Assembly: GCF_030295425.1 (NCBI RefSeq)
Contig: NZ_AP027081.1
Coordinates: 1,426,001 to 1,490,000 of the forward strand
From: Mesoterricola sediminis
GTDB taxonomy: Bacteria; Acidobacteriota; Holophagae; Holophagales; Holophagaceae
Reading direction: 5' to 3'
Length of the DNA: 64,000 bases
This document shows positions 3,073 through 58,240 of the stretch, piece after piece. The notes below the pieces were generated by a model. It was not told the DNA's origin. It saw only the letters and a program-made list of their open reading frames with translations, and did no database searches. The position numbers and the translations under genes are program-made. Position 1 is the first letter of the stretch, and each line of letters starts with the position of its first letter.

Positions 3073-4245
3073 ATGGTTAAGCGGAAGAAAGTCGGGTTCA
3101 CGGTGGACGATGTCGAGGCGTTCCCCCCCAAGGAGAAGCAGTACGAATTGCCGACCCCTGGATGCCACGGCCTCTATCTCAGGGTCATGCCATCGGGGGA
3201 GAAAAGTTGGTCCTACCGATATTCGATTCTCGGGAAATCGCGTCGCGTTTCCCTGGGGCTCTGGCCAGAGCTGACATGTGACGGCGCGATGTCCAAGGCT
3301 GACGCTCTCCGCATCGACGTCCGGGATGGCAAGGACCCCCGCGGCGAGGAGAAGACCCGAGCATCCCTTGACCTCACCATGGAGAAGCTGGCCGAGCGTT
3401 TCGAGGAGCATATCGAGACCCTGAAACCTAGGACTCAGGCCCAGTACAGGTATTACATCAAGAAGTGGATCACGCCTCGCCTTGGAACATTTCTGGTAAG
3501 GCTCATCGGGCTGGTCCATCTCCAGGATTTCAAACGGTCGTTCAAGGGCAAACACCGGACGGCGAATCTATGCATGGCCGTAGTATCTGTGATGCTTGGG
3601 TGGGCAGAGGAACAAGGGCTGCGCCCCCCAGGGTCGAACCCGGCCAAGGCGGTCAAGCGTTTCCCCGTGACTGTCCGGCATCGCTTCCTGGACCCCTCTG
3701 AAATCGGGAAGATCCTGGATGCCATGGATAAATGGAAAGGGCCACTCTATCCCATCGCGGCCATCCGTCTTCTCCTCTTGACAGGCGCCCGGAGGTCTGA
3801 AATCCGGATGATCCGTTGGAAGGATGTGGACGAGACGATGGGGGTAGCCGATCTCCCCGACCACAAGACCATTTCAAGGGGTGATCGCACGCTCTATCTC
3901 CCCCAGGAGGCGGTGGACATCATCAAGTCATTGCCACAAAACCATCTGTCTGAATTCGTGTTCGCCGGGGAAGGGAAAGACGGAACCATTGGGTCCAGCC
4001 TTGATCATGCATGGAGGAAGATTAGGGAGGATGCTGGGCTTCCGGATGTGCCTCTGCACAGCCTGCGCCATACATGGGCGTCCCTTGGGCTGGTTGAGGG
4101 CCTAACGCTTTCGCAGGTTGGGGCCAACCTGGGGCATTCGTCACCAACCACGACACAAAAATACAGCCACCTTGCGGCGGCTGCGGGAAAGACGAATGCC
4201 GAAAAGGTGGCGGCTGCGATCAAGAGACCGAAAGCAATCGGTTAG
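3073..4245 (+). CDS. int: Prophage tyrosine recombinase (integrase)
   Basis: This 390-residue integrase has a DUF4102-like N-terminal arm-binding domain (about residues 15-95, PGCHGLYLRVMPSGEKSWSYR), a central core-binding SAM-like domain (about 100-190) and a C-terminal catalytic domain. The catalytic residues are visible: Arg in LTGARRSEI, His-x-x-Arg in HSLRHTWA, His in LGHSS and the nucleophile Tyr about 364 in TQKYSHL. It lies 165 bp inside attL and reads into the prophage. Its last 26 bp overlap the oppositely oriented excisionase-like gene. Length and motifs are complete, so excision and integration are probably still possible. Confidence 0.95.
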   Translation: MVKRKKVGFTVDDVEAFPPKEKQYELPTPGCHGLYLRVMPSGEKSWSYRYSILGKSRRVSLGLWPELTCDGAMSKADALRIDVRDGKDPRGEEKTRASLDLTMEKLAERFEEHIETLKPRTQAQYRYYIKKWITPRLGTFLVRLIGLVHLQDFKRSFKGKHRTANLCMAVVSVMLGWAEEQGLRPPGSNPAKAVKRFPVTVRHRFLDPSEIGKILDAMDKWKGPLYPIAAIRLLLLTGARRSEIRMIRWKDVDETMGVADLPDHKTISRGDRTLYLPQEAVDIIKSLPQNHLSEFVFAGEGKDGTIGSSLDHAWRKIREDAGLPDVPLHSLRHTWASLGLVEGLTLSQVGANLGHSSPTTTQKYSHLAAAAGKTNAEKVAAAIKRPKAIG

Positions 4246-13871: not shown

Positions 13872-14105
13872 TCAGGACGGCGCCCTCACCGGTTCATCCA
13901 CCTTGAAGCGCGGATCGAAGACCCCGAGGGACGTAGAAGCGACCCTCTGTGTGAACCCCGGCTCGCTGGTGGGATCAGCGCCCCCGCCGGGGATGCCCTC
14001 CTGGTGCGCCCGCACATCGTTGTGCCAGGGCTGGCCGGCGTGTCCCGAGATCTGAGACCACAGCATGACCAGGATTAGGAGGGTGATGGAGAGAAGGATG
14101 AGCAT
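13872..14105 (-). CDS. Small membrane-anchored protein
   Basis: A 77-residue protein with an N-terminal helix (MLILLSITLLILVMLW) and a soluble C-terminal part. The start overlaps the stop of the coiled-coil gene (TGATG). It may be an N-terminally anchored periplasmic protein. No family is recognised. Confidence 0.55.
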   Translation of the reverse strand: MLILLSITLLILVMLWSQISGHAGQPWHNDVRAHQEGIPGGGADPTSEPGFTQRVASTSLGVFDPRFKVDEPVRAPS

Positions 14106-15304
14106 CAGTAGTGAATCTGGACGTGGGGGATCAACCCCTTGGCGATGGCGGTGAGGACGGCTTTGGCCATCCCTTCCAGGCCGTGGGCGTTGGGATCGGC
14201 GCCACGGATGGCGGTCACGATCTCGGCCAGGGCCTCCTGGTTGAACTTCCGGCGGTGCTCCTGGTCCCGCTCGCGGGCCTCCTGGTCCGCCTTGGCCTTG
14301 CGCTCGGCCTCAGCCTGGCGCTGGCGCTCGGCCTCCACGGCGGCCTGAGCCTTGGCCTCAGCCTCGGCCTTGGCCTTCTCGGCGGCGGCTTCGGCATCCT
14401 TCCGGGCCTGCTCGGCGCGGGCGGCGGCCTCCTGGGCCTCGCGGGCCTTGCGCTCGGCTTCGTCCTTCTCGCGCTGGGCCTTGGCCTCGGCTTCACGGCG
14501 GGCCTGTTCAGCGGCCTCGCGGACCCGGTGCTCCTCGGCCTCCTTGCGGTCCCGCTCCTCCTTCTCCTGGCGCAGACGGGCCAGCTCGGCAGCGTCGGCA
14601 TCGGCCTGGACCCTGGCGGCCAGCATCGACTCCACCTCCTGGATGGCCGTTTCCTGGGCCTGGGTGGCTTCCTGGGCGAAGTCCGGCGCTTGGGTGAGGT
14701 CCAGGGCCTTGAGCCCGGCCAGGGTCTCCCTGAGCAGTTCCTGGGGGGCACCCTGGACCTGCATGGGGGTGACCTGGATGTTGGAGATGAACGTGCGCTG
14801 GCGCTCCTGGTCGGTCTCCCAGCGCGTGACAGGGCTGCGGGTCTCGTCCTGGAGGTTCTGGAGGAATGCCTTGTAGCCGGCCTTGTTCTTGTCCACGGCG
14901 GTCGGAAGGGCCTTGAGCTTGCGGTTCAGGGCCACGCCGGTTTCCTCGACGTGGTTCTTGACCTTGCCCACCTTGAAGGCCAGGGACTTGATGGCCTCCC
15001 GCCCCTTGGGGGTGCTGGCGTCCAGCATGGCGGCAGCCTTGCGGACGTGCTCGGCCAGGGTGTTGAGCATGGGCGTCAACGCCCCTTCGGTGGTGAAGAT
15101 CTCCTGGACCTTCTCCTCCTCGATCTTCACGAGGTCCATGGGCTCGATGGTGCCTTCCAGGGGCTCGGACTCGGGCAGGGCAGGGGCGGCGGCACCGTCC
15201 AGGGGGATACCGCGGCGCAGGGTGTCGGCCTCGTCCAGCGCGAGGGGCCGCGCCTGGGCGGGCACGAGGGGCACGACAGGCTTGGGGGTGGCACGGATGA
15301 CCAT
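14105..15304 (-). CDS. Long coiled-coil protein of the recombination module
   Basis: A 399-residue protein. Residues about 60-190 are helical, residues about 200-355 form a continuous Ala/Glu/Arg/Lys coiled coil resembling the TolA stalk in composition, and the last 40 residues are a small globular end. There is no signal or membrane segment, so it is cytoplasmic. It lies directly downstream of the exonuclease and annealing genes and overlaps the exonuclease stop, so it is probably a structural partner in recombination or replication. No enzymatic motif was found. Confidence 0.6.
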   Translation of the reverse strand: MVIRATPKPVVPLVPAQARPLALDEADTLRRGIPLDGAAAPALPESEPLEGTIEPMDLVKIEEEKVQEIFTTEGALTPMLNTLAEHVRKAAAMLDASTPKGREAIKSLAFKVGKVKNHVEETGVALNRKLKALPTAVDKNKAGYKAFLQNLQDETRSPVTRWETDQERQRTFISNIQVTPMQVQGAPQELLRETLAGLKALDLTQAPDFAQEATQAQETAIQEVESMLAARVQADADAAELARLRQEKEERDRKEAEEHRVREAAEQARREAEAKAQREKDEAERKAREAQEAAARAEQARKDAEAAAEKAKAEAEAKAQAAVEAERQRQAEAERKAKADQEARERDQEHRRKFNQEALAEIVTAIRGADPNAHGLEGMAKAVLTAIAKGLIPHVQIHY

Positions 15305-15996
15305 CAGGCGGCGCTCCCTTCCTGGGGCTCTTCCTGGCCCAGCTTGCGGAGCTTGGCGACGAGGATGTCAACCTCGTCAAGGAACACGTCAACTTCCCGT
15401 TCGATCCTCTGGATCTCCTGCTCGTCGCGGGGAAGAGGGACGATGAAAAGCTGGATGTTCTCCGGAAGGCGGGGGTCGAAACTGGCGAAGTCGTTGACCT
15501 CGGCCCCGGTGCAGGCAAGCTCCCAATACATCTGGGGCCTGTAGTCGCTGGGAACCACACCGGCCTCGATGTAGCCGATGTGGGTGGCGGTCTTGGGGCA
15601 CTTGAACTGCACAATGCGCTTGGGGGAGGATTTCCCATCCCAATCCACCAAGCCATCAGGGGAGGCGGCGCAGCGGTCGGACTTGGGATGAATGGTCATG
15701 CCCACCACGTCCACCAGGACGCCCTCGGCAGCCGCGTAGGCGGCGCGGGCATAAGGCTCCTGCTCGTTGCCCCACTGCATGTCCTTGGAGTAGAACGTGT
15801 CCTCCTGGGGGACCCCGGTGAGGATCTCGCAGGCCAACTGCATCTTGTAGTCCCTGCGACAGGCCGGCTCGGCTCCGTTCTTCCCCTTGGCGAGGATGTC
15901 GCTGATCCGGCTGGCGGTGACGCGCCCGGCGCGGGCCTTCTTCCACTCGTCGGAGCCCTGCTCCACGTTGATGATGCGCTCGATGAAGGGCTTCAC
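15304..15996 (-). CDS. YqaJ/lambda-Exo-like recombination exonuclease
   Basis: A 230-residue PD-(D/E)XK nuclease. Motifs: GSDEWKKARAGRVTASR near the start, QWGNEQEPYARAAY (conserved Glu), ASPDGLVDWDG (catalytic Asp), VQFKCPK (the E-x-K strand, here Q-x-K), and RPQMYWELACTG. The family degrades one strand of duplex DNA to expose the single strand for annealing. It is paired with the ERF gene immediately upstream (ATGA overlap), forming a Red-like system. The Gln in place of the usual Glu in the E-x-K motif is unusual and could affect activity. Confidence 0.88.
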   Translation of the reverse strand: MKPFIERIINVEQGSDEWKKARAGRVTASRISDILAKGKNGAEPACRRDYKMQLACEILTGVPQEDTFYSKDMQWGNEQEPYARAAYAAAEGVLVDVVGMTIHPKSDRCAASPDGLVDWDGKSSPKRIVQFKCPKTATHIGYIEAGVVPSDYRPQMYWELACTGAEVNDFASFDPRLPENIQLFIVPLPRDEQEIQRIEREVDVFLDEVDILVAKLRKLGQEEPQEGSAA

Positions 15997-16799
15997 TTCT
16001 GGCCTCCCTTCTGGGTGGGCTGGGGCCGCAGCTCCTTGAGTCGGGCATCCTTGGCGGCGTTGATGGCGTCCATGGCGGCACGGTCGCCGTGCTTCTGGGC
16101 GGTGGCATAGGCGGCGTTGACGATGGCGGCCAGGGCCTTGGTGTCGGGAGCGGCCTTGATCTTGGCGACCTCGGCATCCAGGTCCAGTTCCTTCTCGCTG
16201 GCCTCGGGGCGCGGCGTGGGGGGCCGACCATCGTTGTCCTGGTCCTTGACGGCCATGCCGGTGATGGCCAGGAGGGTGTAGCGCTCCAGGTAGGTCACGG
16301 TGGAGCCCACCTGCTGGATGACGTTCTTGTTGCCGCTGTCATCAGCGGGCCCGTCCATGGTCACGGTCTCGCTGTGCCCCATCTCGTGCTGGAGGTAGCA
16401 GGTGACGTGGACGCGCGGCCCCTTCTGCTCGACGTTCCAGCGGAAGGAGAGCCCGTGGGGGGAGAGCGCCTGGCCGATCTGGGCCGCGACCTCATCCAGG
16501 GTCGCGTGGCGGTAGTGGGTGCGGATCCCGGTCTTGCCGGTGAAGTCCACCTCCTTGTTCTTGCGGAGGGTGGGCGGGTTGGCCTTGAACGCGGCCAAGG
16601 CCTTGTTGAAGGCCTTGCGGGCCTCGTCGGCTTCCCAGTCGCGCTTCATCTGCATGAGGCGTTCCAGGCGGTCAAGGTCGGCGCCCTGGCTCATGGCCAG
16701 TTGGAGTAGGCCCATGGGCGTCGGCTCCATGGAGACGGTGTTCGGCACCCTGGACGGGAGGGTCTGGAGGGCAGACGTACCCTCGGTTTCGGGGATCAC
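15993..16799 (-). CDS. erf: ERF-family single-strand annealing protein
   Basis: A 268-residue protein. The ERF core runs from about residue 65 to 185: FNKALAAFKANPPTLRKNKE, THYRHATLDEVAAQIGQAL, GLSFRW, then GSTVTYLERYTLLAITGMA, the hallmark of ERF proteins. It binds single-stranded DNA and anneals complementary strands during phage recombination and circularisation. It overlaps the YqaJ exonuclease gene by four bases. The C-terminal 60 residues are a linker and tail, as in P22 Erf. Confidence 0.9.
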   Translation of the reverse strand: MIPETEGTSALQTLPSRVPNTVSMEPTPMGLLQLAMSQGADLDRLERLMQMKRDWEADEARKAFNKALAAFKANPPTLRKNKEVDFTGKTGIRTHYRHATLDEVAAQIGQALSPHGLSFRWNVEQKGPRVHVTCYLQHEMGHSETVTMDGPADDSGNKNVIQQVGSTVTYLERYTLLAITGMAVKDQDNDGRPPTPRPEASEKELDLDAEVAKIKAAPDTKALAAIVNAAYATAQKHGDRAAMDAINAAKDARLKELRPQPTQKGGQK

Positions 16800-17038: not shown

Positions 17039-17394
17039 CAGGCCACGTCCTCAAGCGCCTGCCTCACCTTCTCGGCCAGGTCGCGCTTCGCGTTCTCGAC
17101 CATGCCCATGATGAACGGGTGCTCCAGGGCCTCGGCCTCCTCCATGGTCCAGACCTCGCCGGGGACCTCATAGAGGGGGACCTTGCAGAACCCGTAGAAG
17201 ACCCCGCGCCTCGCGGAGACCTGGAGCTTGAAGGACCTGGGGCGACTCTGGAAGTGGTAGCTGTCCAGGACCAAGAACCCGATCTCGACGGACTTCACGC
17301 TGCGGGCCTCACCTGGATCGGGCTGGGGCTGCGCGGGGACGGAGGAGGGGGAGGAGGGATCCTGCGGAACGGGATGATCGTGGACATGAGACAC
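17038..17394 (-). CDS. First gene of the leftward early operon, hypothetical
   Basis: Reading from GTG at 17394 (GGAGG four bases upstream) gives 118 residues. The upstream extension in the same frame is low-complexity. After a Pro-rich N terminus it contains VEIGFLVLDSYHFQSRPRSF and a helical C terminus (MVENAKRDLAEKVRQALEDVA). No family is recognised. It is the first protein-coding gene after the tRNA and tmRNA genes in the leftward direction. Confidence 0.6.
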   Translation of the reverse strand: MSHVHDHPVPQDPSSPSSVPAQPQPDPGEARSVKSVEIGFLVLDSYHFQSRPRSFKLQVSARRGVFYGFCKVPLYEVPGEVWTMEEAEALEHPFIMGMVENAKRDLAEKVRQALEDVA

Positions 17395-17566: not shown

Positions 17567-17639
17567 TGGTAGCAGGCCAGGGAGTTGAACCCTGCGAGCT
17601 GGGCTTATGAGACCCTGCTGCACGTCCGGTGCGCCTGCG
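17567..17639 (-). tRNA. tRNA-Met-like gene, anticodon CAT, initiator-like acceptor
   Basis: The minus strand shows a perfect 5-bp T stem (CAGGG/CCCTG) with loop TTCAACT, an encoded CCA, an anticodon loop CTCATAA with anticodon at 17607-17609, and an acceptor with six pairs (GCAGGC/GCCTGC) capped by a C1-U72 mismatch, as initiator tRNAs have a mismatch at 1-72. The D arm is short (GCAC-CGGAC-GTGC) and overlaps where the linker should be, so folding is non-standard. It lies 2 nt downstream of the tmRNA 3' end on the same strand. It could be a degenerate or specialised initiator tRNA. Confidence 0.6.
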
Positions 17640-17641
17640 TC

Positions 17642-17987
17642 TGGTGGACGTGGCGGGAGTCGAACCCGCGTCCAAGAAGAGAGAAACAATCGCGATTCAC
17701 AGGCTTTTCATGCAAGGGTGACTTTCGCCACCTCCACCACCCGGCCTGGTGTTCTCCGGGGCCGGGTCCGGTCTGCCTGGGTCATCCCCAGAGCATGTTG
17801 GGTATCAGGCCGCCGCCGGGAGGGCGACGGGGGCCCACTCCTGTTCGGAATGGGGGGTGAAGAAGCTGCGGACGAAGGTGAAGACGTTCTTGGCAGTTTT
17901 CTTTTGATCGGCTTGATGAGCGGGCCAACCGATCAACCCGCGCCTGCGCTCATGTGTTCCATCAACCTGTCGAAACCATTCACGCCC
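17642..17987 (-). ncRNA. ssrA: tmRNA (ssrA) encoded within the prophage
   Basis: The 346-nt gene begins GGGCGTG and carries the conserved GGTTTCGACAGG 5' segment. Its 3' end has a perfect T arm (GCGGG-TTCGACT-CCCGC) and CACGTCC-A-CCA, whose last seven stem bases pair with the 5' GGGCGTG (one G-U pair). The tag frame runs from a GCC at 17892-17894, after AAAACT, to a TGA at 17805-17807: 29 residues ending in VALPAAA, a hydrophobic protease-type degron. tmRNA rescues stalled ribosomes with SmpB. The tag is much longer than the usual 10-15 residues. It lies between the leftward promoter and the early operon. Confidence 0.88.
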
Positions 17988-18120
17988 GTGTTGTCGAAGA
18001 TCTGAAGCTGGCCCCCAGCCGCGATCCCCCAGGCCCTTGGTGCGCGGGGGATCTTGTCGGCTACTTCATGAGGCCTCCGGGTTGGGGTTGATCCGTGATG
18101 GATCGGTGGTGCGATACCCT

Positions 18121-18149
18121 AATGTCGCACAAGATGCGATACTCGTCAA
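18121..18149 (-). promoter_or_regulatory. Leftward early promoter PL
   Basis: Read on the minus strand: TTGACG (18144-18149), a 17-bp spacer, then GACATT (18121-18126). Operator O1 fills most of the spacer and touches the -10, so repressor binding would block RNA polymerase. Transcription would start near 18114 and run into the tmRNA, the tRNA and the recombination operon. The promoter is inferred from the boxes and the operator overlap. Confidence 0.6.
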
Positions 18150-18173
18150 GGGCGAATATCGCAAAAGATGCGA
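18125..18173. promoter_or_regulatory. Left operator region (two TCGCA-N5-TGCGA sites)
   Basis: Perfect inverted repeats TCGCA-N5-TGCGA lie at 18125-18139 and 18159-18173, centres 34 bp apart. A GCGAATATCGC palindrome overlaps the second. The same set (two full sites, centres 33 bp apart, plus the overlapping palindrome) recurs at 19779-19826 on the other side of the repressor operon. This is the layout of lambda OL and OR, so these are taken as binding sites of the prophage repressor. Confidence 0.75.
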
Positions 18174-18184
18174 AAATCTCTCAG

Positions 18185-18216
18185 GCAAAAAGAAAGCCCT
18201 GCGTTTGCAGGGCTTT
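18185..18216 (-). terminator. Rho-independent terminator of the repressor operon
   Basis: A perfect 10-bp stem (AAAGCCCTGC/GCAGGGCTTT) with a 4-nt loop at 18193-18216, followed on the minus strand by a T-rich tract (TTTCTTTTTG). It stands 22 bp after the stop of the last lysogeny gene (18238) and just before the leftward promoter, and so separates the two transcription units. Confidence 0.85.
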
Positions 18217-18487: not shown

Positions 18488-18874
18488 TTAGTGGTGTCCA
18501 TTCCTTTTCTCCATCTCTTCAACAGTTTCTCTCATGGCCATGAGATAAACATCGGCCTCCTCCTGAACGCCTTTGGGGTTCATTCTGATCGCAAGTTCGG
18601 CATGCCGGTATTTGGTGAATACGTCTGAGTCTCCGATCCCCCAAGCCTTCTGGTGGCGGAGTCTTTGTTGGACTTCAATGCATAGCCCACTCAGGTAAGA
18701 CCTGCATCCTGGTGGCCAATATTTTAACCCGCTCGCGATTTCTGTTTGAGAATGTGACATTTCAAACGGAACAAGACTCACAGATCTTGCAAGGTCATGG
18801 ACACAATAAAAATGCCAAAAACACGCCAGCATCAGAATCAGCAAAAGAGTAGATGAAGCTATAATCCTTTTCAT
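18488..18874 (-). CDS. Membrane-anchored protein in the lysogeny operon
   Basis: A 128-residue protein from ATG 18874, overlapping the ImmA stop by ATGA. Residues 5-25 form a signal anchor (IIASSTLLLILMLACFWHF). The rest is soluble, with two Cys in CRSYLSGLCIEVQQ, and probably periplasmic. Small anchored proteins made with the repressor are often superinfection-exclusion factors; that is inference from position only. Confidence 0.6.
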   Translation of the reverse strand: MKRIIASSTLLLILMLACFWHFYCVHDLARSVSLVPFEMSHSQTEIASGLKYWPPGCRSYLSGLCIEVQQRLRHQKAWGIGDSDVFTKYRHAELAIRMNPKGVQEEADVYLMAMRETVEEMEKRNGHH

Positions 18875-19329
18875 GCCACCTCCTGGGCGAGTGCAGATAG
18901 TCGATATTTGGCTATACTGGCCGCTAGGTCGCGTGCTGGGCAATCTTCAAAAGGTATATCCTCATAATGAGCTGATAGCGCACCAATAAATGCATCAATA
19001 GATGCGTTCTGGTACATACAGATTCTTTGAATAGGGATTAAGGCCTGCGCTGCCCATCGGCTAGCCTGAACCTCTTCCTTCCGGTATGAAAGAGACCCTT
19101 TGGCACCAGAGTGCTGAAAGGCATGGCCGAGCTCATGGGCGAGGGCCCAAATCCTCATAAGCGGGGATACACCATTGGGGATGACGATTACCCTCACCCC
19201 CATGATATTTGGGTAGTACAGCCCAAAGGGCACGTCGGCAAAACCGACCCCAATCCGATTTTCTTCTGCTAGGCCAAGCATGGTATGAAAATCTGGGTAA
19301 GAGTTGCCAAACCAATCCGGGTTTTGCAT
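18871..19329 (-). CDS. ImmA/IrrE-type metallopeptidase
   Basis: A 152-residue protein from ATG 19329. It has the zinc-protease motif ALAHELGHAFQHSG with a downstream Glu (EEVQASRWAAQALIP), as in the ImmA/IrrE family. In ICEBs1 and similar elements this protease cleaves the neighbouring repressor to derepress excision. Here it lies 4 bp after the HTH repressor gene, so it is the likely anti-repressor of this switch. The repressor has no S24 self-cleavage domain, which fits. Confidence 0.88.
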   Translation of the reverse strand: MQNPDWFGNSYPDFHTMLGLAEENRIGVGFADVPFGLYYPNIMGVRVIVIPNGVSPLMRIWALAHELGHAFQHSGAKGSLSYRKEEVQASRWAAQALIPIQRICMYQNASIDAFIGALSAHYEDIPFEDCPARDLAASIAKYRLSALAQEVA

Positions 19330-19333
19330 CCGC

Positions 19334-19741
19334 CTATTGTGACAGCACTGCCCTCGCCGCCGCCATCGCAACTCGATAGGCATGGAGCTTTTGCTCGTCA
19401 GTCAACTGTCCTACGACATCTTGCCCCATGGCGCCTTCCAATGCCTCACATGCGAGCGCCAGTTCGTCCTTCACTACTGGCTGGGCAGGGGCTGGGTTAT
19501 ATACATCCCAAGGGTTGATGTGGTATCGCTTGGCGATTTTTTCCACCACTGCCCTTTCTGGCTTGCGGTCAAGATTATAGCGCCACCCGGTAAGAAGGCT
19601 GTAAGTCGTCCCGAGGCCAAATTCTTTTGCGAGGTCCTCGTAGGTGACTACTCCGCTGGAGACCTCTGCATCGATGAGGCCTAGGACAAAAAGCCGTTGC
19701 GGCCAAATATCATCGGGCCTTTGTTTCCGAGGTCTGCTCAT
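19334..19741 (-). CDS. Prophage HTH repressor (ImmR-like position)
   Basis: From ATG 19741 (TTTGGGG upstream) this is 135 residues; an ATG at 19771 is possible but has no ribosome site. An XRE-like domain spans about residues 12-65: VTYEDLAKEFGLGTTYSLLTGW, then AVVEKIAKRYHINPWDVYNP. The C-terminal half is helical and carries no S24 peptidase motif. Operator O3 lies 38 bp upstream. Coupled to the ImmA-type protease, it should bind the TCGCA-N5-TGCGA operators and keep the early promoters off. Confidence 0.75.
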   Translation of the reverse strand: MSRPRKQRPDDIWPQRLFVLGLIDAEVSSGVVTYEDLAKEFGLGTTYSLLTGWRYNLDRKPERAVVEKIAKRYHINPWDVYNPAPAQPVVKDELALACEALEGAMGQDVVGQLTDEQKLHAYRVAMAAARAVLSQ

Positions 19742-19778: not shown

Positions 19779-19826
19779 TCGCAACAAGTGCGAGATTCAC
19801 TCTTGCGAATATCGCAGTCTGTGCGA
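19779..19826. promoter_or_regulatory. Right operator region (two TCGCA-N5-TGCGA sites)
   Basis: Full sites at 19779-19793 and 19812-19826, centres 33 bp apart, with TGCGAATATCGCA at 19804-19816 overlapping the second. It mirrors the left operator region and sits between the divergent repressor and Cro-like genes. The second site fills the spacer of the rightward promoter. Confidence 0.78.
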
Positions 19827-19830
19827 TAAT
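19803..19830 (+). promoter_or_regulatory. Rightward early promoter PR
   Basis: TTGCGA (19803-19808), a 16-bp spacer, then GATAAT (19825-19830). Operator O4 covers the spacer. A start 7-8 bp past the -10 falls at about 19837-19838, which is the ATG of the Cro-like gene, so the transcript may be leaderless or have its ribosome site left untranscribed. Confidence 0.6.
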
Positions 19831-44919: not shown

Positions 44920-46080
44920 ATGGCTGTCGAGAATGCCAACAGCACGCAGCTCGCTTACATCCAGGAGGGCCAGTTCGGCGTGACGCCCTCCACCCCCACC
45001 GGCCAGCTCATCCGCTGGACGGACCTGAGCCTCGGGCCCGACCGGGACTACATCGACAACCCCGAGTACCGCACGGATGGCCAGACCGCCGCCGGGAGGG
45101 GCGGGGCCATCCGGGGCAAGGGCAGTTTCGGGGGGAAAGTCTCCTACGGCACCCTCGATGATTTCCTCGCCGCCGCGCTCGGCAATTTCGGCTGGTCCTC
45201 CAACGTCATCAAGATCAAGGGCACGTCGGTCATGAGCGCGGCCAGCGTTGCCGTCGCCGCCTCCGGCAAGACTTTCACGCGCCTCGCGGGGTCCTTCCTC
45301 ACGGACGGTTTCGCGGTGGGCGACTACGTCACCTGGTCGGGGTTCACCAACTCCGCCAACAACATCACCGTCCAGATCACAACCCTGACCGCCACCGTCA
45401 TGACCTGCTCCAACGCCGCCGGTCTGGTCGATGAGGGGACTGCGACGGGGCGCTCCTGCGTGACCAACACCCGGCCCTCGTTCACGTTCGAGAAGGGCCA
45501 CCGCAACAACGGCCTCTACTTCGGCTACACGGGCTGTGTGGTGGACGGGTTCGAACTCAAGGGCGCGGTGGACTCCGCCGTGGAATACGGCATCGACCTG
45601 CTGGCCAAGGCCGCCCTGGACGAAGCCCGCGCCAGCCTGTTCTCCGCCCTCACCGCGGTCAACACCAACCCGCTCCTCACGACCTGGGAAGGCGGGGCCA
45701 AGAAGGGCGGAAACTCGATCAGCCTGACCTCCTGGAGCATGAAGGTCGCCCGGAATTCCGACAGCGGGAAGGTCTGCGGCTCCAGCGCCCTCTACGACAT
45801 CTCCCCCCGGGCCGCCAAGGTCACCGGGAGCCTGGAGCTCTACTTCGACCAGAACGCCTACGGGCTCTACACCGACATGCGGGCCGACAACGACGCGGCG
45901 CTCCAGTTCATTCTCGGCTCCGGGACGGCCAAGTCCTACCAGGTCGACCTGACGAAGTGCAAGTTGAAGAACTGGAAGGGCGATCCCAGGGAAGGGATGG
46001 GCCTCGTCTCCGTGGACTACGAGTCCTACGCCCCCGATTCCGGGACCAACACGGCCTGCATGATCACCCGCATCCCCTGA
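44920..46080 (+). CDS. Major tail tube protein with inserted domain
   Basis: A 386-residue protein. Tube parts: ANSTQLAYIQEGQFGVTPST, DYIDNPEYRTDGQ, VSYGTLDDFLAAALG, RPSFTFEKGHRNNGLYFGYT, and the C-terminal AYGLYTDMRADNDAALQF. An inserted segment at residues about 106-174 (TFTRLAGSFLTDGFAVGDYV) resembles one in the central fibre protein at 51668. Tail tube proteins are usually 200-300 residues; the insert explains much of the extra length. Confidence 0.85.
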   Translation: MAVENANSTQLAYIQEGQFGVTPSTPTGQLIRWTDLSLGPDRDYIDNPEYRTDGQTAAGRGGAIRGKGSFGGKVSYGTLDDFLAAALGNFGWSSNVIKIKGTSVMSAASVAVAASGKTFTRLAGSFLTDGFAVGDYVTWSGFTNSANNITVQITTLTATVMTCSNAAGLVDEGTATGRSCVTNTRPSFTFEKGHRNNGLYFGYTGCVVDGFELKGAVDSAVEYGIDLLAKAALDEARASLFSALTAVNTNPLLTTWEGGAKKGGNSISLTSWSMKVARNSDSGKVCGSSALYDISPRAAKVTGSLELYFDQNAYGLYTDMRADNDAALQFILGSGTAKSYQVDLTKCKLKNWKGDPREGMGLVSVDYESYAPDSGTNTACMITRIP

Positions 46081-51667: not shown

Positions 51668-54600
51668 ATGACGCGGAACATCAACTGGGTGGACGGCGGC
51701 GGAGATACCGACCCCAAACGGCCAACATCCCTCGGCATCCAGACGGTGCAGCAGGCCAAACTCCTGTTCGCGCTGTCCTGCGGGGCCATCCTGGGGCCCG
51801 TCCATGGCCAATGCGGGCTCATGACCGGCACGCCCAACGTCGCCGTGGACGGGACCGCCAAGACGTTCACGCGGGACGCCGGATCGTTCCTTACGGACGG
51901 CTTCGCGGTGGGCCAGAGCTTCCAGAGTTGGGGCTTCTCCAACGCGGCAAACAACGGGTTCTTCACCATCACCTCGGTATCGGCCACCGTCCTGACGTGC
52001 TCCGGGGCCACCCTCGTGACCGAGGGCAGCGGCTCGAATCGCCACATCGGACCCTCCGGGCTCCGGGACATCTACCTCAACGACGTCCCGATCCAGAACA
52101 GCGACGGAACCTTTAACTTCTCCGGCATCAACGTCTCGATGACGAAGGGGACGCTGACCCAGACCCCGATCAACGGGTTCTCGGACACGGAATCCGTCAC
52201 CGTTTCTGGGGCGCAGATCCTCAACTCCACACCCCAGCCTGTGTATATTCCCAATGTTGCGGCTACCGCTGTCCGGCTCAACATCAGTCTCCCCGCGCTC
52301 TACCAGCAGTCCTCCTACGACGGCTCCATGAGCGGGGATACCGTCAACCTCAAGGTGGAGGTGAGCAACAACGGGGCATCGTACGTGGACGCCTCTGCCA
52401 AGATCGGGGCGGACGTGCTCAAAATCACCGGGGGCCCGACCACGGGCGCTGTCGTGCGCTCGATCCGGCTCAACCTGACCCAGTTCGGCTCCGGCCCCTG
52501 GAGCGTGCGCGTCTCGCGCGTCACCGCCGACAACAACACGACCTACCGGGAAAACCGGACCTACCTCCAGAGCTACAGCGCCATCACGGAACAGCAGCTC
52601 CGCTACCCAGGGACCGCGCTCCTGGCGATCACAGTGGACGCCAAGCGCTTCTCCAGCATGCCCAAGGTGAGCGTCCGGTCCTATGGCCGGAAGGTCTTGG
52701 TTCCCGCGAACTACACGCCGGCCACGCGCAATCCGGACACCGGGGTCTGGACCCCTGCGGTCTACGCCACGACGGGCACCGGCACCTCCGGAGGGTCCTG
52801 GGACGGCACGTTCAAGGAGGCGTGGACCTCGAATCCCGCCTGGATTTTCATGGACATGGCCACGAGCAAGGTCTACGGCGCGGGGACCTACCTGTCCCAG
52901 AGCGGGGTGGACAAGTGGGGCCTGTACACGCTGGCGATGTACTGCGACGGCATGGTCTCCGATGGGTTCGGAGGGACCGAGCCGCGGTTCGCCTTCAACG
53001 GCTACATCCAGTCCCAGGAAGAAGCATTCCACATGCTCGCGCACATCATCTCGTGCGCTCGTGCCCAGCTCTACTACGGCAAGGGCAAGGTCATGCCCGT
53101 CCAGGATGTGGACGATACGCCGGTCCACCTGTTCACGCCCTCGAACGTGGTGGGCGGGAAATTCTCCTACAGCGGCACCGCCCGGAAGGCGCGGCACACC
53201 GTCGCCCAGGTCACCTGGAACGACCCCGCGCAGCTCTGGAAAGCCGTTCCGGAGCAGGTCCAGGCCGATTCCAGCTACATCTCCCGGTATGGGGTCCAGG
53301 TCACGAGCTACACCGCCGTGGGCTGCACCTCCAAGGGCCAGGCCAGAAGGTCGGGGCGCTACACCCTACTCAGCGAACTCAACGAGACCGAGGCCGTGAC
53401 GTTCTCCACGGGCATTGAGGGGACCTACGTCAAACCCGGAAAGATCATTCTGATCCAGGACCCTGCCCGGTTGAGGTTCCGCATGGGCGGGCGCATCGAC
53501 TCCGCGACGTCCAGCACCGTCACCCTGGACGGGCAGGTCACCCTCCAGAGCGGCCAGACCTACACGCTCTGGGTGCAGCTACCCGATGGCTCCCTGGTCT
53601 CCAAGACCGTCACCACGGCGGCTGGGACCGTCTCCGCCCTCACGATCAGCGGGACATTCGCCACGATCCCGAGCGCCAAGGCCCAGTGGCTCCTGTCCTC
53701 CACCGCTCAGCCCGCCTCGCGCTGGCGCGTCATCTCCGTCCGGGAGGTGCAGGACCAGACCATCGAAATCACGGCCCTTGCCAACTATCAGGCCAAGTAC
53801 GCCCTTGCGGACATCACGGATTCCCTGGTCGCCGCGCCTGTCGCAACCTCCAACCTGGGGGCTCCGTCCGGCCTCGTCCTGACCCACACCACACAGACCC
53901 AATCCGACCGTCTGGCCTACTCCCTGTCGGCCTCCTGGACCGCTCCGACCGGAACGCCCAACGGCTACATCGCCCAGTACCGCAAGGACACCGGGGCCTG
54001 GATCGACATGACCGTCGCAGGCTGCGGGGCCTCCGCGCAGGACCTCCTGGTCGGGGTCTACGACGTCCGGGTCGCCGCCCAGTATCAGGACGGCGTTTCC
54101 GACTGGGTGGTCGGGGCAGGGCACACGATCAGCAACGCCGGAGGCAGCCCCGCCGAAATCGCCCAGGGCGGCGTGGACCAGATCAACAGCGTCAACTACC
54201 TCGTGAACCTCGACAAGATCACGCTGGTCCAGGACTGGAAAGCGGAGCTCCAGACCCAGACCCAGCTAGACTCACAGGCCTCCACCCTGGGCGTTTCGGC
54301 CACGGCCTACGATGCCGCGGTCGCCGCGCTCTCGTCCGGGCTCATCTCCGCCGGGGCCCCGAGCAACTGGGCCACCCTCTGGCCCGATGGCACGACCTGG
54401 GCCAAGACCGGAATCATGACCAGCCTCCAGGGCTGGTGGCAGAACATCGTCTCGGCCCGCACGGCGCTCATGACCGCCATCACCGCCAAAGTGAACACCA
54501 CGGCCACGGCCAGCGGGGCTACGGCGACGTGGGGGAGCATCAGCGGCGGGGCGGCGCAGGCGGCTCCGAGCGGAGGGTGGGCTGGGGCCTCCAATTTCAC

Positions 54601-56149
54601 GGGGGCCATCAACGGCGTATCGCTCTCCCTCACCTCCCCGAGCCCGTATGTCCTGTGGGTCAATGCCGATGCCACGGTTACCGGGACCCTGTTCTCCGTC
54701 AATTCCGGCGGATCCTTTCGGTTCGGGGTTAACAACAACGGGGCGGTCACTGCCAATGGGGGCGGTTCCTTCGGGGGAATCGTTTCAAGCCCTGGATTCT
54801 GTGCCGCCGGAGCCGTTGTCACTGCTGGGGCCAACGCCTGCTGGTTTGATGCCGCAGGAGGAGGGCGGATCGCGACCGTCGGTCCGAACTCGTCTACCTT
54901 CAATGGCTGGGGCATCGACCAGTACACCTCCGACCTCAGCGGATACCGGAGAGTCTTCGACATCACAGCCGCTGGGGTGGGCTACCTCAACGGCTCCCTG
55001 ATCCTCACCCTCGGCAACGTGGGGTCCAACTCCGCCACCCTCCAGGCTGCTGTGGCCTCTGCAATGGCGCCCAAGGTGGGGACCTACGCCCAGATGATCG
55101 CCTACAGCGTGCCGGCAGGCACCACGCCCTTCTGGTATGCCACGGACGCGACCGCTCCGGACGGGCTCCTGGGCAGGCTGTACCAGTGGAACGGCTCGAC
55201 CTGGGTTGACCAGGGCAATCCCAACGCCGTCATCGGGCGCATCACCGCCGGCATCATCTCGGCTGGAGCCGTAGGCGCCCAGGCCCTCGCGGCGGACATC
55301 GCCCTCATCGGGCAGGTCATCCGATCCACAGGCTACACGGCGGGGACCTCCAGCGTCCCTCCCAGTGGGTTCAAGCTGAGCGGGTCTGCGTTCACGGTCA
55401 CCTACCTGGACGGGACCACGGATAGCGTCATCGCGGATTTCGGGGGCAACGTCTCGATCGCCGGCATGAAAGCGGCGGTGGTGGCGAACCGGATCCGGGG
55501 CAACACCTACACCCAGAGCGGGACGGGCACCCTCGACGTGCCGATCCCCGAGGGCATCACGAGCGTCGAACTGACCCTCCAGGCGGCTGGCGGCAACGGT
55601 GGCAGCTCCTACGGGGCTGGCGGGAACGGGGGCCAGTACATCCGCAAGACCATCACCGTGAAGCCCCACAACACCTACCGGATCACGGTGGGCGCGGTGG
55701 GGTCCAACAGCACGTTCTCGTGGCTCTCGTTCGACAGCACGAGCGGGTTCACCACGGACTCTGGTTTCGCGACGATCACCGCGACGTGCGGCGCGAACGG
55801 GGCAGGGTCCAGCTCTGGCGTAAACGGCACGGACTCTCCCAACTGCGTCCAGCAACCCGAATACGGCTGGGTGGTGACCGGTGGGACCGGCGGCGACAGC
55901 GGCGTCTACAGCGGCGTGGCCAAAGCCGGGAACGGCGGGGCCTGCGGGCTCCAGGCGGGCGGGGCTGGCCCCACCGCGACGGCGGTCAAGACCAATTCCG
56001 GCGGAGGTGGAGGCGCTTCTGCGATGGCTCCGGGCGGGGCAGGGGCGCTTACCGGAGCGAATGGAACGGCTGGGACCCTGGGTTCCGGCGGAGGTGGCGG
56101 GGCTACCGGTGGCGCGGGTGGCCCTGGGTTCGGACGCGCCAAGTGGTGA
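51668..56149 (+). CDS. Central tail fibre/host specificity protein J
   Basis: A 1493-residue protein. The opening SLGIQTVQQAKLLFALSCGA and GPVHG, then after an inserted ~75-residue segment LRDIYLNDVPIQNSDGTFNF, is the J N terminus. Middle parts: KFSYSGTARKARHTVAQVTW, EAVTFSTGIEGTYVKPGKI, and a fibronectin-III-like domain near 725-815. The C-terminal end is very Gly-rich (about 1310-1493). J forms the tip spike that binds the host receptor. The inserted segment is related to one in the tail tube protein. Confidence 0.92.
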   Translation: MTRNINWVDGGGDTDPKRPTSLGIQTVQQAKLLFALSCGAILGPVHGQCGLMTGTPNVAVDGTAKTFTRDAGSFLTDGFAVGQSFQSWGFSNAANNGFFTITSVSATVLTCSGATLVTEGSGSNRHIGPSGLRDIYLNDVPIQNSDGTFNFSGINVSMTKGTLTQTPINGFSDTESVTVSGAQILNSTPQPVYIPNVAATAVRLNISLPALYQQSSYDGSMSGDTVNLKVEVSNNGASYVDASAKIGADVLKITGGPTTGAVVRSIRLNLTQFGSGPWSVRVSRVTADNNTTYRENRTYLQSYSAITEQQLRYPGTALLAITVDAKRFSSMPKVSVRSYGRKVLVPANYTPATRNPDTGVWTPAVYATTGTGTSGGSWDGTFKEAWTSNPAWIFMDMATSKVYGAGTYLSQSGVDKWGLYTLAMYCDGMVSDGFGGTEPRFAFNGYIQSQEEAFHMLAHIISCARAQLYYGKGKVMPVQDVDDTPVHLFTPSNVVGGKFSYSGTARKARHTVAQVTWNDPAQLWKAVPEQVQADSSYISRYGVQVTSYTAVGCTSKGQARRSGRYTLLSELNETEAVTFSTGIEGTYVKPGKIILIQDPARLRFRMGGRIDSATSSTVTLDGQVTLQSGQTYTLWVQLPDGSLVSKTVTTAAGTVSALTISGTFATIPSAKAQWLLSSTAQPASRWRVISVREVQDQTIEITALANYQAKYALADITDSLVAAPVATSNLGAPSGLVLTHTTQTQSDRLAYSLSASWTAPTGTPNGYIAQYRKDTGAWIDMTVAGCGASAQDLLVGVYDVRVAAQYQDGVSDWVVGAGHTISNAGGSPAEIAQGGVDQINSVNYLVNLDKITLVQDWKAELQTQTQLDSQASTLGVSATAYDAAVAALSSGLISAGAPSNWATLWPDGTTWAKTGIMTSLQGWWQNIVSARTALMTAITAKVNTTATASGATATWGSISGGAAQAAPSGGWAGASNFTGAINGVSLSLTSPSPYVLWVNADATVTGTLFSVNSGGSFRFGVNNNGAVTANGGGSFGGIVSSPGFCAAGAVVTAGANACWFDAAGGGRIATVGPNSSTFNGWGIDQYTSDLSGYRRVFDITAAGVGYLNGSLILTLGNVGSNSATLQAAVASAMAPKVGTYAQMIAYSVPAGTTPFWYATDATAPDGLLGRLYQWNGSTWVDQGNPNAVIGRITAGIISAGAVGAQALAADIALIGQVIRSTGYTAGTSSVPPSGFKLSGSAFTVTYLDGTTDSVIADFGGNVSIAGMKAAVVANRIRGNTYTQSGTGTLDVPIPEGITSVELTLQAAGGNGGSSYGAGGNGGQYIRKTITVKPHNTYRITVGAVGSNSTFSWLSFDSTSGFTTDSGFATITATCGANGAGSSSGVNGTDSPNCVQQPEYGWVVTGGTGGDSGVYSGVAKAGNGGACGLQAGGAGPTATAVKTNSGGGGGASAMAPGGAGALTGANGTAGTLGSGGGGGATGGAGGPGFGRAKW

Positions 56150-58142: not shown

Positions 58143-58210
58143 GCCTGGAACCCTTGGTGCCGGCGGTCGGACTCGAACCGACACTCCCTTTCAGAAAACA
58201 GATTTTGAGT
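58143..58210. repeat. attR: right copy of the 68-bp attachment repeat within tRNA-Leu
   Basis: A perfect match to 2840-2907. It covers the 3' 56 bases of the tRNA (CCA, acceptor 3' strand, T arm, variable arm, anticodon) plus 12 bp downstream. Crossover must lie inside these 68 bp. The 5' tRNA half at 58211-58240 is host sequence, so the tRNA stays whole. Confidence 0.93.
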
Positions 58211-58240
58211 CTGTCGCGTCTGCCATTTCGCCACGCCGGC
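58155..58240 (-). tRNA. tRNA-Leu, anticodon CAA
   Basis: The 86-nt gene has acceptor GCCGGCG/CGCCGGC, anticodon stem CAGA/TCTG with loop CTCAAAA (anticodon CAA, reads TTG), a long variable arm, T arm GTCGG-TTCGAGT-CCGAC and an encoded CCA. All class II tRNA features are present. It is the attachment target of the prophage and remains functional at the right junction. Confidence 0.93.

Follow-up and report, generated by a model that had tools for sequence, protein, structure and literature searches.

Mycobacteriophages and phage G are known to carry genes for tmRNA (PMC4131195), and a published survey found such genes in 402 of 18,146 phage genomes (PMC9004378). Bxz1, Wildcat, Bacillus phage G, the Streptomyces BE phages and Melnitz, like the prophage described below, carry a complete tmRNA of their own, often near tRNA genes, and the tmRNA of the OM43 phage Melnitz also lies directly behind an early promoter but is a two-piece molecule (PMC4131195, PMC9004378). 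These phages are large and mostly lytic, whereas the carrier here is a 55-kb temperate Acidobacteriota prophage with an operator-controlled PL. A tmRNA inside an integrated prophage is reported for prophiT49-2 of M. abscessus (PMC9934374), which differs in having 24 tRNAs alongside and in being an 80-kb serine-integrase prophage. In view of the survey (PMC9004378) and of the M. abscessus prophage (PMC9934374), the statement of the first-pass annotation of the present locus that phage tmRNAs are rare outside mycobacteriophages was too strong. CP4-57 and CP4So also link a prophage with tmRNA, but use the host ssrA as their att site (PMC10107115); unlike in these elements, the att site here is a tRNA-Leu gene and the phage carries its own tmRNA gene. 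A tmRNA is known to be processed by RNase P, alanylated via G3-U70 and bound by SmpB before its tag is translated (PMC3985003, PMC3968760), and the roles suggested in print for a phage tmRNA range from keeping up the translation machinery that the phage has hijacked to having host proteins selectively degraded (PMC9004378). Long tags, as well as phage tmRNAs, have precedents (see below); the present case contributes a temperate Acidobacteriota lineage, the setting at PL operators, two diverged members with a common tag core, and a relative without the tmRNA.

The window (the whole stretch of DNA analysed, 64,000 nt) comes from the complete genome of the soil-type bacterium Mesoterricola sediminis (one 4.52-Mb contig; Holophagaceae, Acidobacteriota), in which a prophage of 55.3 kb, the carrier of the tmRNA, has integrated at tRNA-Leu(CAA). 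The location inside a prophage, as first annotated, was confirmed by the integrase and an 84-nt direct repeat of tRNA-Leu(CAA) bounding the element, and the tmRNA is indeed apart from the att site; insertion at ssrA was rejected, the att site being tRNA-Leu. The features of the prophage frame are as follows.

2840-2923, no strand: attL, the duplicated 3' part of tRNA-Leu(CAA) (direct repeat D3, 94%)
3073-4245, plus strand: tyrosine integrase (phrog_1, E 9e-68; PF00589), adjoining attL
14105-16799, minus strand: Erf-like annealing protein, RecE-like exonuclease and phrog_1376 protein (by PHROGs), downstream of the tmRNA
58143-58226, no strand: attR, within the reconstituted tRNA-Leu(CAA) gene (58155-58240, minus strand)

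The prophage also encodes an ImmA-type protease, a CII-like protein, an antirepressor, a helicase, and Erf and RecE-type recombination proteins, as well as terminase, portal, major head, tape measure and J-like tip proteins. No homologue of the major capsid protein was found in the genome collection, nor any of 44920-46080 in IMG/VR. Two relatives (G001 and G005) have a 9-kb right-flank stretch with tRNA-Leu(CAA) as its only tRNA and with no prophage sequence; their left flank did not align, so that the comparison falls short of a full empty-site proof.

The tmRNA was assigned the same ends by ARAGORN and by the Rfam covariance model RF00023 (score 95.1 bits, where the gathering cut-off is 47; E 8e-36; full model, positions 1-374, spanned). 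Its parts are listed below.

17642-17987, minus strand: phage tmRNA gene (ssrA-like), 346 nt, one-piece, complete, with encoded CCA (ARAGORN, Rfam, homologue)
17906-17941, minus strand: PK1, stems GCGGG/CCCGC and GATCGG/CCGATC, directly before the tag
17805-17894, minus strand: tag frame, 29 codons and TGA, AKNVFTFVRSFFTPHSEQEWAPVALPAAA* (ARAGORN coding part 94-183)

Both ends proposed in the first-pass annotation (5' GGTTTCGACAGG, paired acceptor, T arm and CCA) were thus recovered, on the minus strand, which had not been stated. The acceptor stem (GGGCGUG / CACGUCC) has all pairs formed, among them G3-U70 (for the role of the G-U pair in alanine identity, see PMC3985003), and the T arm is perfect. 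The resume codon GCC aligns with the GCC of the host tmRNA. The Holophagaceae host ssrA and the phage copy alike have the TLD with G3-U70, the T arm, CCA, PK1, GCC, and an open tag with a stop codon; the phage copy differs in its length (346 nt vs 383 nt in the host), in its tag (29 codons without the LAA end vs 11 in the host), and in lying under PL in a prophage. It also differs in PK2-PK4, which are reduced or not recognisable, with shorter hairpins instead; three hairpins behind the tag hold in both phage RNAs (see below), with no pseudoknot demonstrated there, and the fit to the Rfam model behind the tag is poor (mean posterior, about 0.64). In E. coli, PK1 is needed for tagging, and PK2-PK4 can be dispensed with or interchanged (PMC3968760), so that activity is compatible with such a reduced 3' half. 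The folding energy of the window tmRNA was only moderately better than that of shuffles (z -2.6), and hence the comparative evidence matters more.

Such evidence was provided by another species of the genus (G001), which has two tmRNAs, the second one (1818437-1818752, 316 nt) being inside a collinear prophage, in the left operon as in the window, about 550 nt behind a small gene. ARAGORN did not call this second tmRNA; its tag, read from the homologous GCC, is AKHSNVVPFARSFRPMAQAA* (20 residues). The two prophages are collinear and strongly diverged, the alignable proteins being mostly 28-61% identical. In eight hand-named helices, the two phage RNAs showed nine compensatory changes and no broken pair, and RNAalifold gave ten double changes; compensatory changes are found before as well as behind the tag. 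In the acceptor stem, both partners of pairs 4 and 5 are altered with G3-U70 retained, and PK1, which is conserved in host tmRNAs, has one compensatory change. In the tree of the conserved parts, the phage pair was split from 17 host tmRNAs (98% bootstrap). With this homologue and its compensatory base changes, the window tmRNA locus is, as judged from sequence comparison, not a chance resemblance, and the gene is shared by related phages rather than a one-off capture. We consider that the tmRNA gene is probably functional and forms part of the early cargo of a temperate siphovirus-like Holophagaceae phage.

The same comparison bears on two other readings. First, the RNA might be a neutral passenger, that is, a captured host ssrA now drifting, with a tag lengthened after selection on it was gone; a host derivation is in line with the 5' 98 nt, which are about 75-83% identical to Holophagaceae ssrA, and no tmRNA was found in the other related phages searched. 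Drift would break pairs, however, and the helices show nine compensatory changes and no broken pair; in addition, the gene occupies equivalent positions in two diverged prophages, both of which retain G3-U70 and an open tag frame containing the common core, so that we regard this reading as very improbable. Second, the RNA might be a decoy, or dominant-negative RNA, that depresses trans-translation by the host because it and the host tmRNA compete for SmpB; the reduced 3' half and the altered tag would suit it, and the RNA of mycobacteriophage DS6A, which consists of the tRNA-like domain (TLD) only, is reported to inhibit the endogenous tmRNA in E. coli (PMC4131195, PMC11915505). DS6A has, however, little beyond the TLD, whereas PK1, the resume region, the open tag frame with its stop codon and the common tag core are all retained here, and a pure decoy needs no tag, on both sides of which the compensatory changes lie; a decoy role is thus improbable.

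The host has a second, ordinary ssrA at 3770342-3770724, 2.3 Mb from the prophage copy, with the tag ANDNFELALAA; this tag, or a variant by one to a few residues, was found in most relatives with a called tmRNA. The genome-wide search for another ssrA proposed with the first-pass annotation therefore returned one with a different tag. The annotation had also offered replacement of a host copy lost to integration, which we reject, since integration took place at tRNA-Leu and left the host ssrA intact. SmpB is encoded by one gene in the genome, outside the prophage; together with the intact host ssrA, this indicates that the phage tmRNA is no replacement and would have to borrow the host SmpB. 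That a rearrangement might have captured or moved the ssrA of the host itself into the window has in its favour the sequence similarity of the tRNA-like domain and PK1 and nothing more; the second ssrA in the complete genome, with the family-standard tag, refutes it, and the window copy lies within att-bounded prophage DNA, so that this reading has next to no probability. As for the origin, the 5' 98 nt matched only Holophagaceae tmRNAs among the 100 relatives searched, and outside the family the match was confined to the T-arm end; the phage tmRNA therefore probably derives from the ssrA of a Holophagaceae host, taken long ago. The placement of the host itself in the Holophagaceae agrees with its RNase R, whose best named relatives are from MAGs of that family (up to 79%).

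Among other Holophagaceae, a second tmRNA was found in the two prophages and the MAG G103 only. In G103, of the same family, RF00023 matched twice, over about 390 nt each and on separate contigs; this MAG may be of mixed genomes. A partial match in G010 was by eye a host-type tmRNA ending NTELALAA. The blastn search against named phages and plasmids gave no close relative, its one match being a 34-nt stretch of the T arm in an Alcaligenes phage, and the exact PK1 pattern had no match in IMG/VR.

The region upstream of the tmRNA contains the following features.

18121-18149, minus strand: putative PL promoter, TTGACG - 17 nt - GACATT, with an operator between the hexamers (architecture shared with G456)
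18125-18139, no strand: operator palindrome TCGCACAAGATGCGA (OL), TCGCAN5TGCGA
18159-18173, no strand: operator palindrome TCGCAAAAGATGCGA (OL), TCGCAN5TGCGA
18193-18216, minus strand: intrinsic terminator-like hairpin (10-pair stem and T run) between the repressor operon and PL
18871-19383, minus strand: ImmA/IrrE-type metalloprotease of the immunity region (PF06114, E 2e-7; phrog_87)
19334-19741, minus strand: putative repressor, 135 aa (start codon approximate), by eye like the operator-side protein of G456
19779-19826, no strand: second operator pair (OR), sites 19779 and 19812, before the repressor-like gene
19803-19830, plus strand: promoter-like site at OR

The TCGCA-N5-TGCGA palindrome occurs exactly four times in the window, always in the immunity region; two copies stand before the tmRNA, surrounding or overlapping TTGACG-17-GACATT. 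The putative PL has a weak -10 box, GACATT, and was not among the calls of the promoter scan; Pfam gave no match for the putative repressor (ORF 19334-19741). A related 56-kb virus contig (G456), collinear and with proteins up to 60% identical, has a promoter of like layout (TCGCACATCATGCGA...TTGACG...TCGCAGTCGATGCGA...TATT; TTGACG-17-GATATT), and no tmRNA was found in it. The placement next to PL given in the first-pass annotation is thus supported by operator sites, the promoter being putative. This tmRNA-less relative serves as a control, and its layout, together with the terminator-like hairpin, marks the tmRNA as cargo directly behind a conserved operator-bearing early promoter; PL operators were identified beside the window tmRNA, not beside that of the G001 prophage. 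From this arrangement we predict that the tmRNA is silent in the lysogen and expressed early on induction. The leader (window about 18060-18085, minus strand) contains a strong Shine-Dalgarno sequence and then a two-codon minigene, GGAGGCCTCATGAAGTAG; in other phages, such minigenes can cause translation to stall or become depleted.

Behind the tmRNA there is an adjoining tRNA-like gene.

17567-17639, minus strand: tRNA-Met(CAU)-like gene with a short D arm and a 1-72 mismatch, separated from the tmRNA by 2 nt

ARAGORN did not call this gene in the window; it is 74.7% identical to the ARAGORN-called tRNA-Met(CAT) of the second prophage. The counterpart lies near 17286-17364 of record L060 (about 1817285-1817363 in G001), where some 1.07 kb separates it from the tmRNA. 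Inspection by eye showed for the two genes a D arm that is very short (loop CGGAC/CGGAT), a 1-72 mismatch as in initiator tRNAs, and covariation in the D, anticodon and T stems; their identity may be Met or Ile2.

Under the working-gene reading, the repressor would keep PL off in the lysogen and the terminator would block transcripts from the repressor operon, and thus only the host ssrA would be used. On induction, PL would fire, and the leader, the tmRNA and the adjoining tRNA-like gene would be transcribed first; tRNA-type processing would free the tmRNA, AlaRS would charge it via G3-U70, host SmpB would carry it to stalled ribosomes, and translation would resume at GCC, adding the 29-residue phage tag instead of the 11-residue host tag. 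Of this scheme, the sequence itself shows the structure of the RNA and its context, the homologue and the operators, the difference between the tags, and the presence of SmpB and an intact ssrA in the host, whereas we infer transcription, activity and the fate of the tagged proteins. The likely benefit is extra ribosome-rescue capacity in early lytic growth, with products marked differently from those of the host. A redirection of rescue during infection, as suggested in the first-pass annotation, would be a possible effect.

The 29-codon tag frame ending VALPAAA (then TGA) was confirmed by ARAGORN at 17894-17805. Its length, which had been called unusual, is so but is not unique; among 30 distinct tags of IMG/VR tmRNAs (8 to 29 residues), one other has 29, in a sample from three pattern scans in which some tags are probably from prophages at host ssrA sites. 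Long-tag tmRNAs in this sample (L191, 29 aa; L278, 21 aa; L167, 20 aa) pass the RF00023 cut-off as the window tmRNA does; they belong to other viruses, and no similarity of their tags to the phage tags was detectable. The 26-residue tag of L190 was discounted for weak Rfam support. The tag of phage G is AKLNITNNELQVA. The two phage tags here share the core NVFTFVRSF / NVVPFARSF (NVxxFxRSF; shuffle p 0.005-0.014), a conservation resting on two sequences with p of about 0.01 and with tag lengths of 29 and 20, and neither resembles the host tag (p 0.26-0.45 in shuffles). Since the lengths differ, length itself is probably not the selected property. Both phage tags keep the terminal AA of LAA and have lost its Leu (PAAA in the window and AQAA in the second prophage, vs ALAA in the host), and LAA ends 17 of the 18 host tags called by ARAGORN. 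ClpX binds the LAA residues (PMC3968760); with the Leu lost from both known phage tags, slower or differently addressed proteolysis of phage-tagged proteins is plausible, and a fate different from that of host-tagged products is a proposal.

How far the tag itself matters may be weighed on the same data. The phage RNA may act by dose only, rescuing ribosomes with the tag difference irrelevant, and ClpXP or some other protease would then degrade the products in the usual way. The final AA is retained, and tags vary widely among bacteria and phages, but the two phage tags have a core in common that the host tag does not contain, and neither has Leu at -3. We hold this to be possible, with a minor though appreciable share of our confidence. 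Alternatively, the phage may swap the host degradation tag in lytic growth, with NVxxFxRSF and the loss of LAA diverting peptides from ClpXP or to another partner; we put this forward tentatively, rather doubting it, and, if true, it would make the tmRNA a tool for redirecting host protein turnover. The host tmRNA and the apparently repressor-controlled phage tmRNA, with clearly different tags, offer a clean comparison in one cell, and with the core common to two phages the role of a phage tag thus becomes a testable question.

The tag core may also resemble the cyanobacterial tags NNIVxFxR and NNVVPFAR, which is a lead only, and the tag of L167, ANDNVVRVDFSRKADLRLVA, contains an NVV...F.R pattern. 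Finally, in the Alcaligenes phage QDWS595 (L513; Schitoviridae), positions 54500-56000 of the record hold an unannotated permuted tmRNA beside tRNA genes, with the tag ANDNVYAAAA by ARAGORN.
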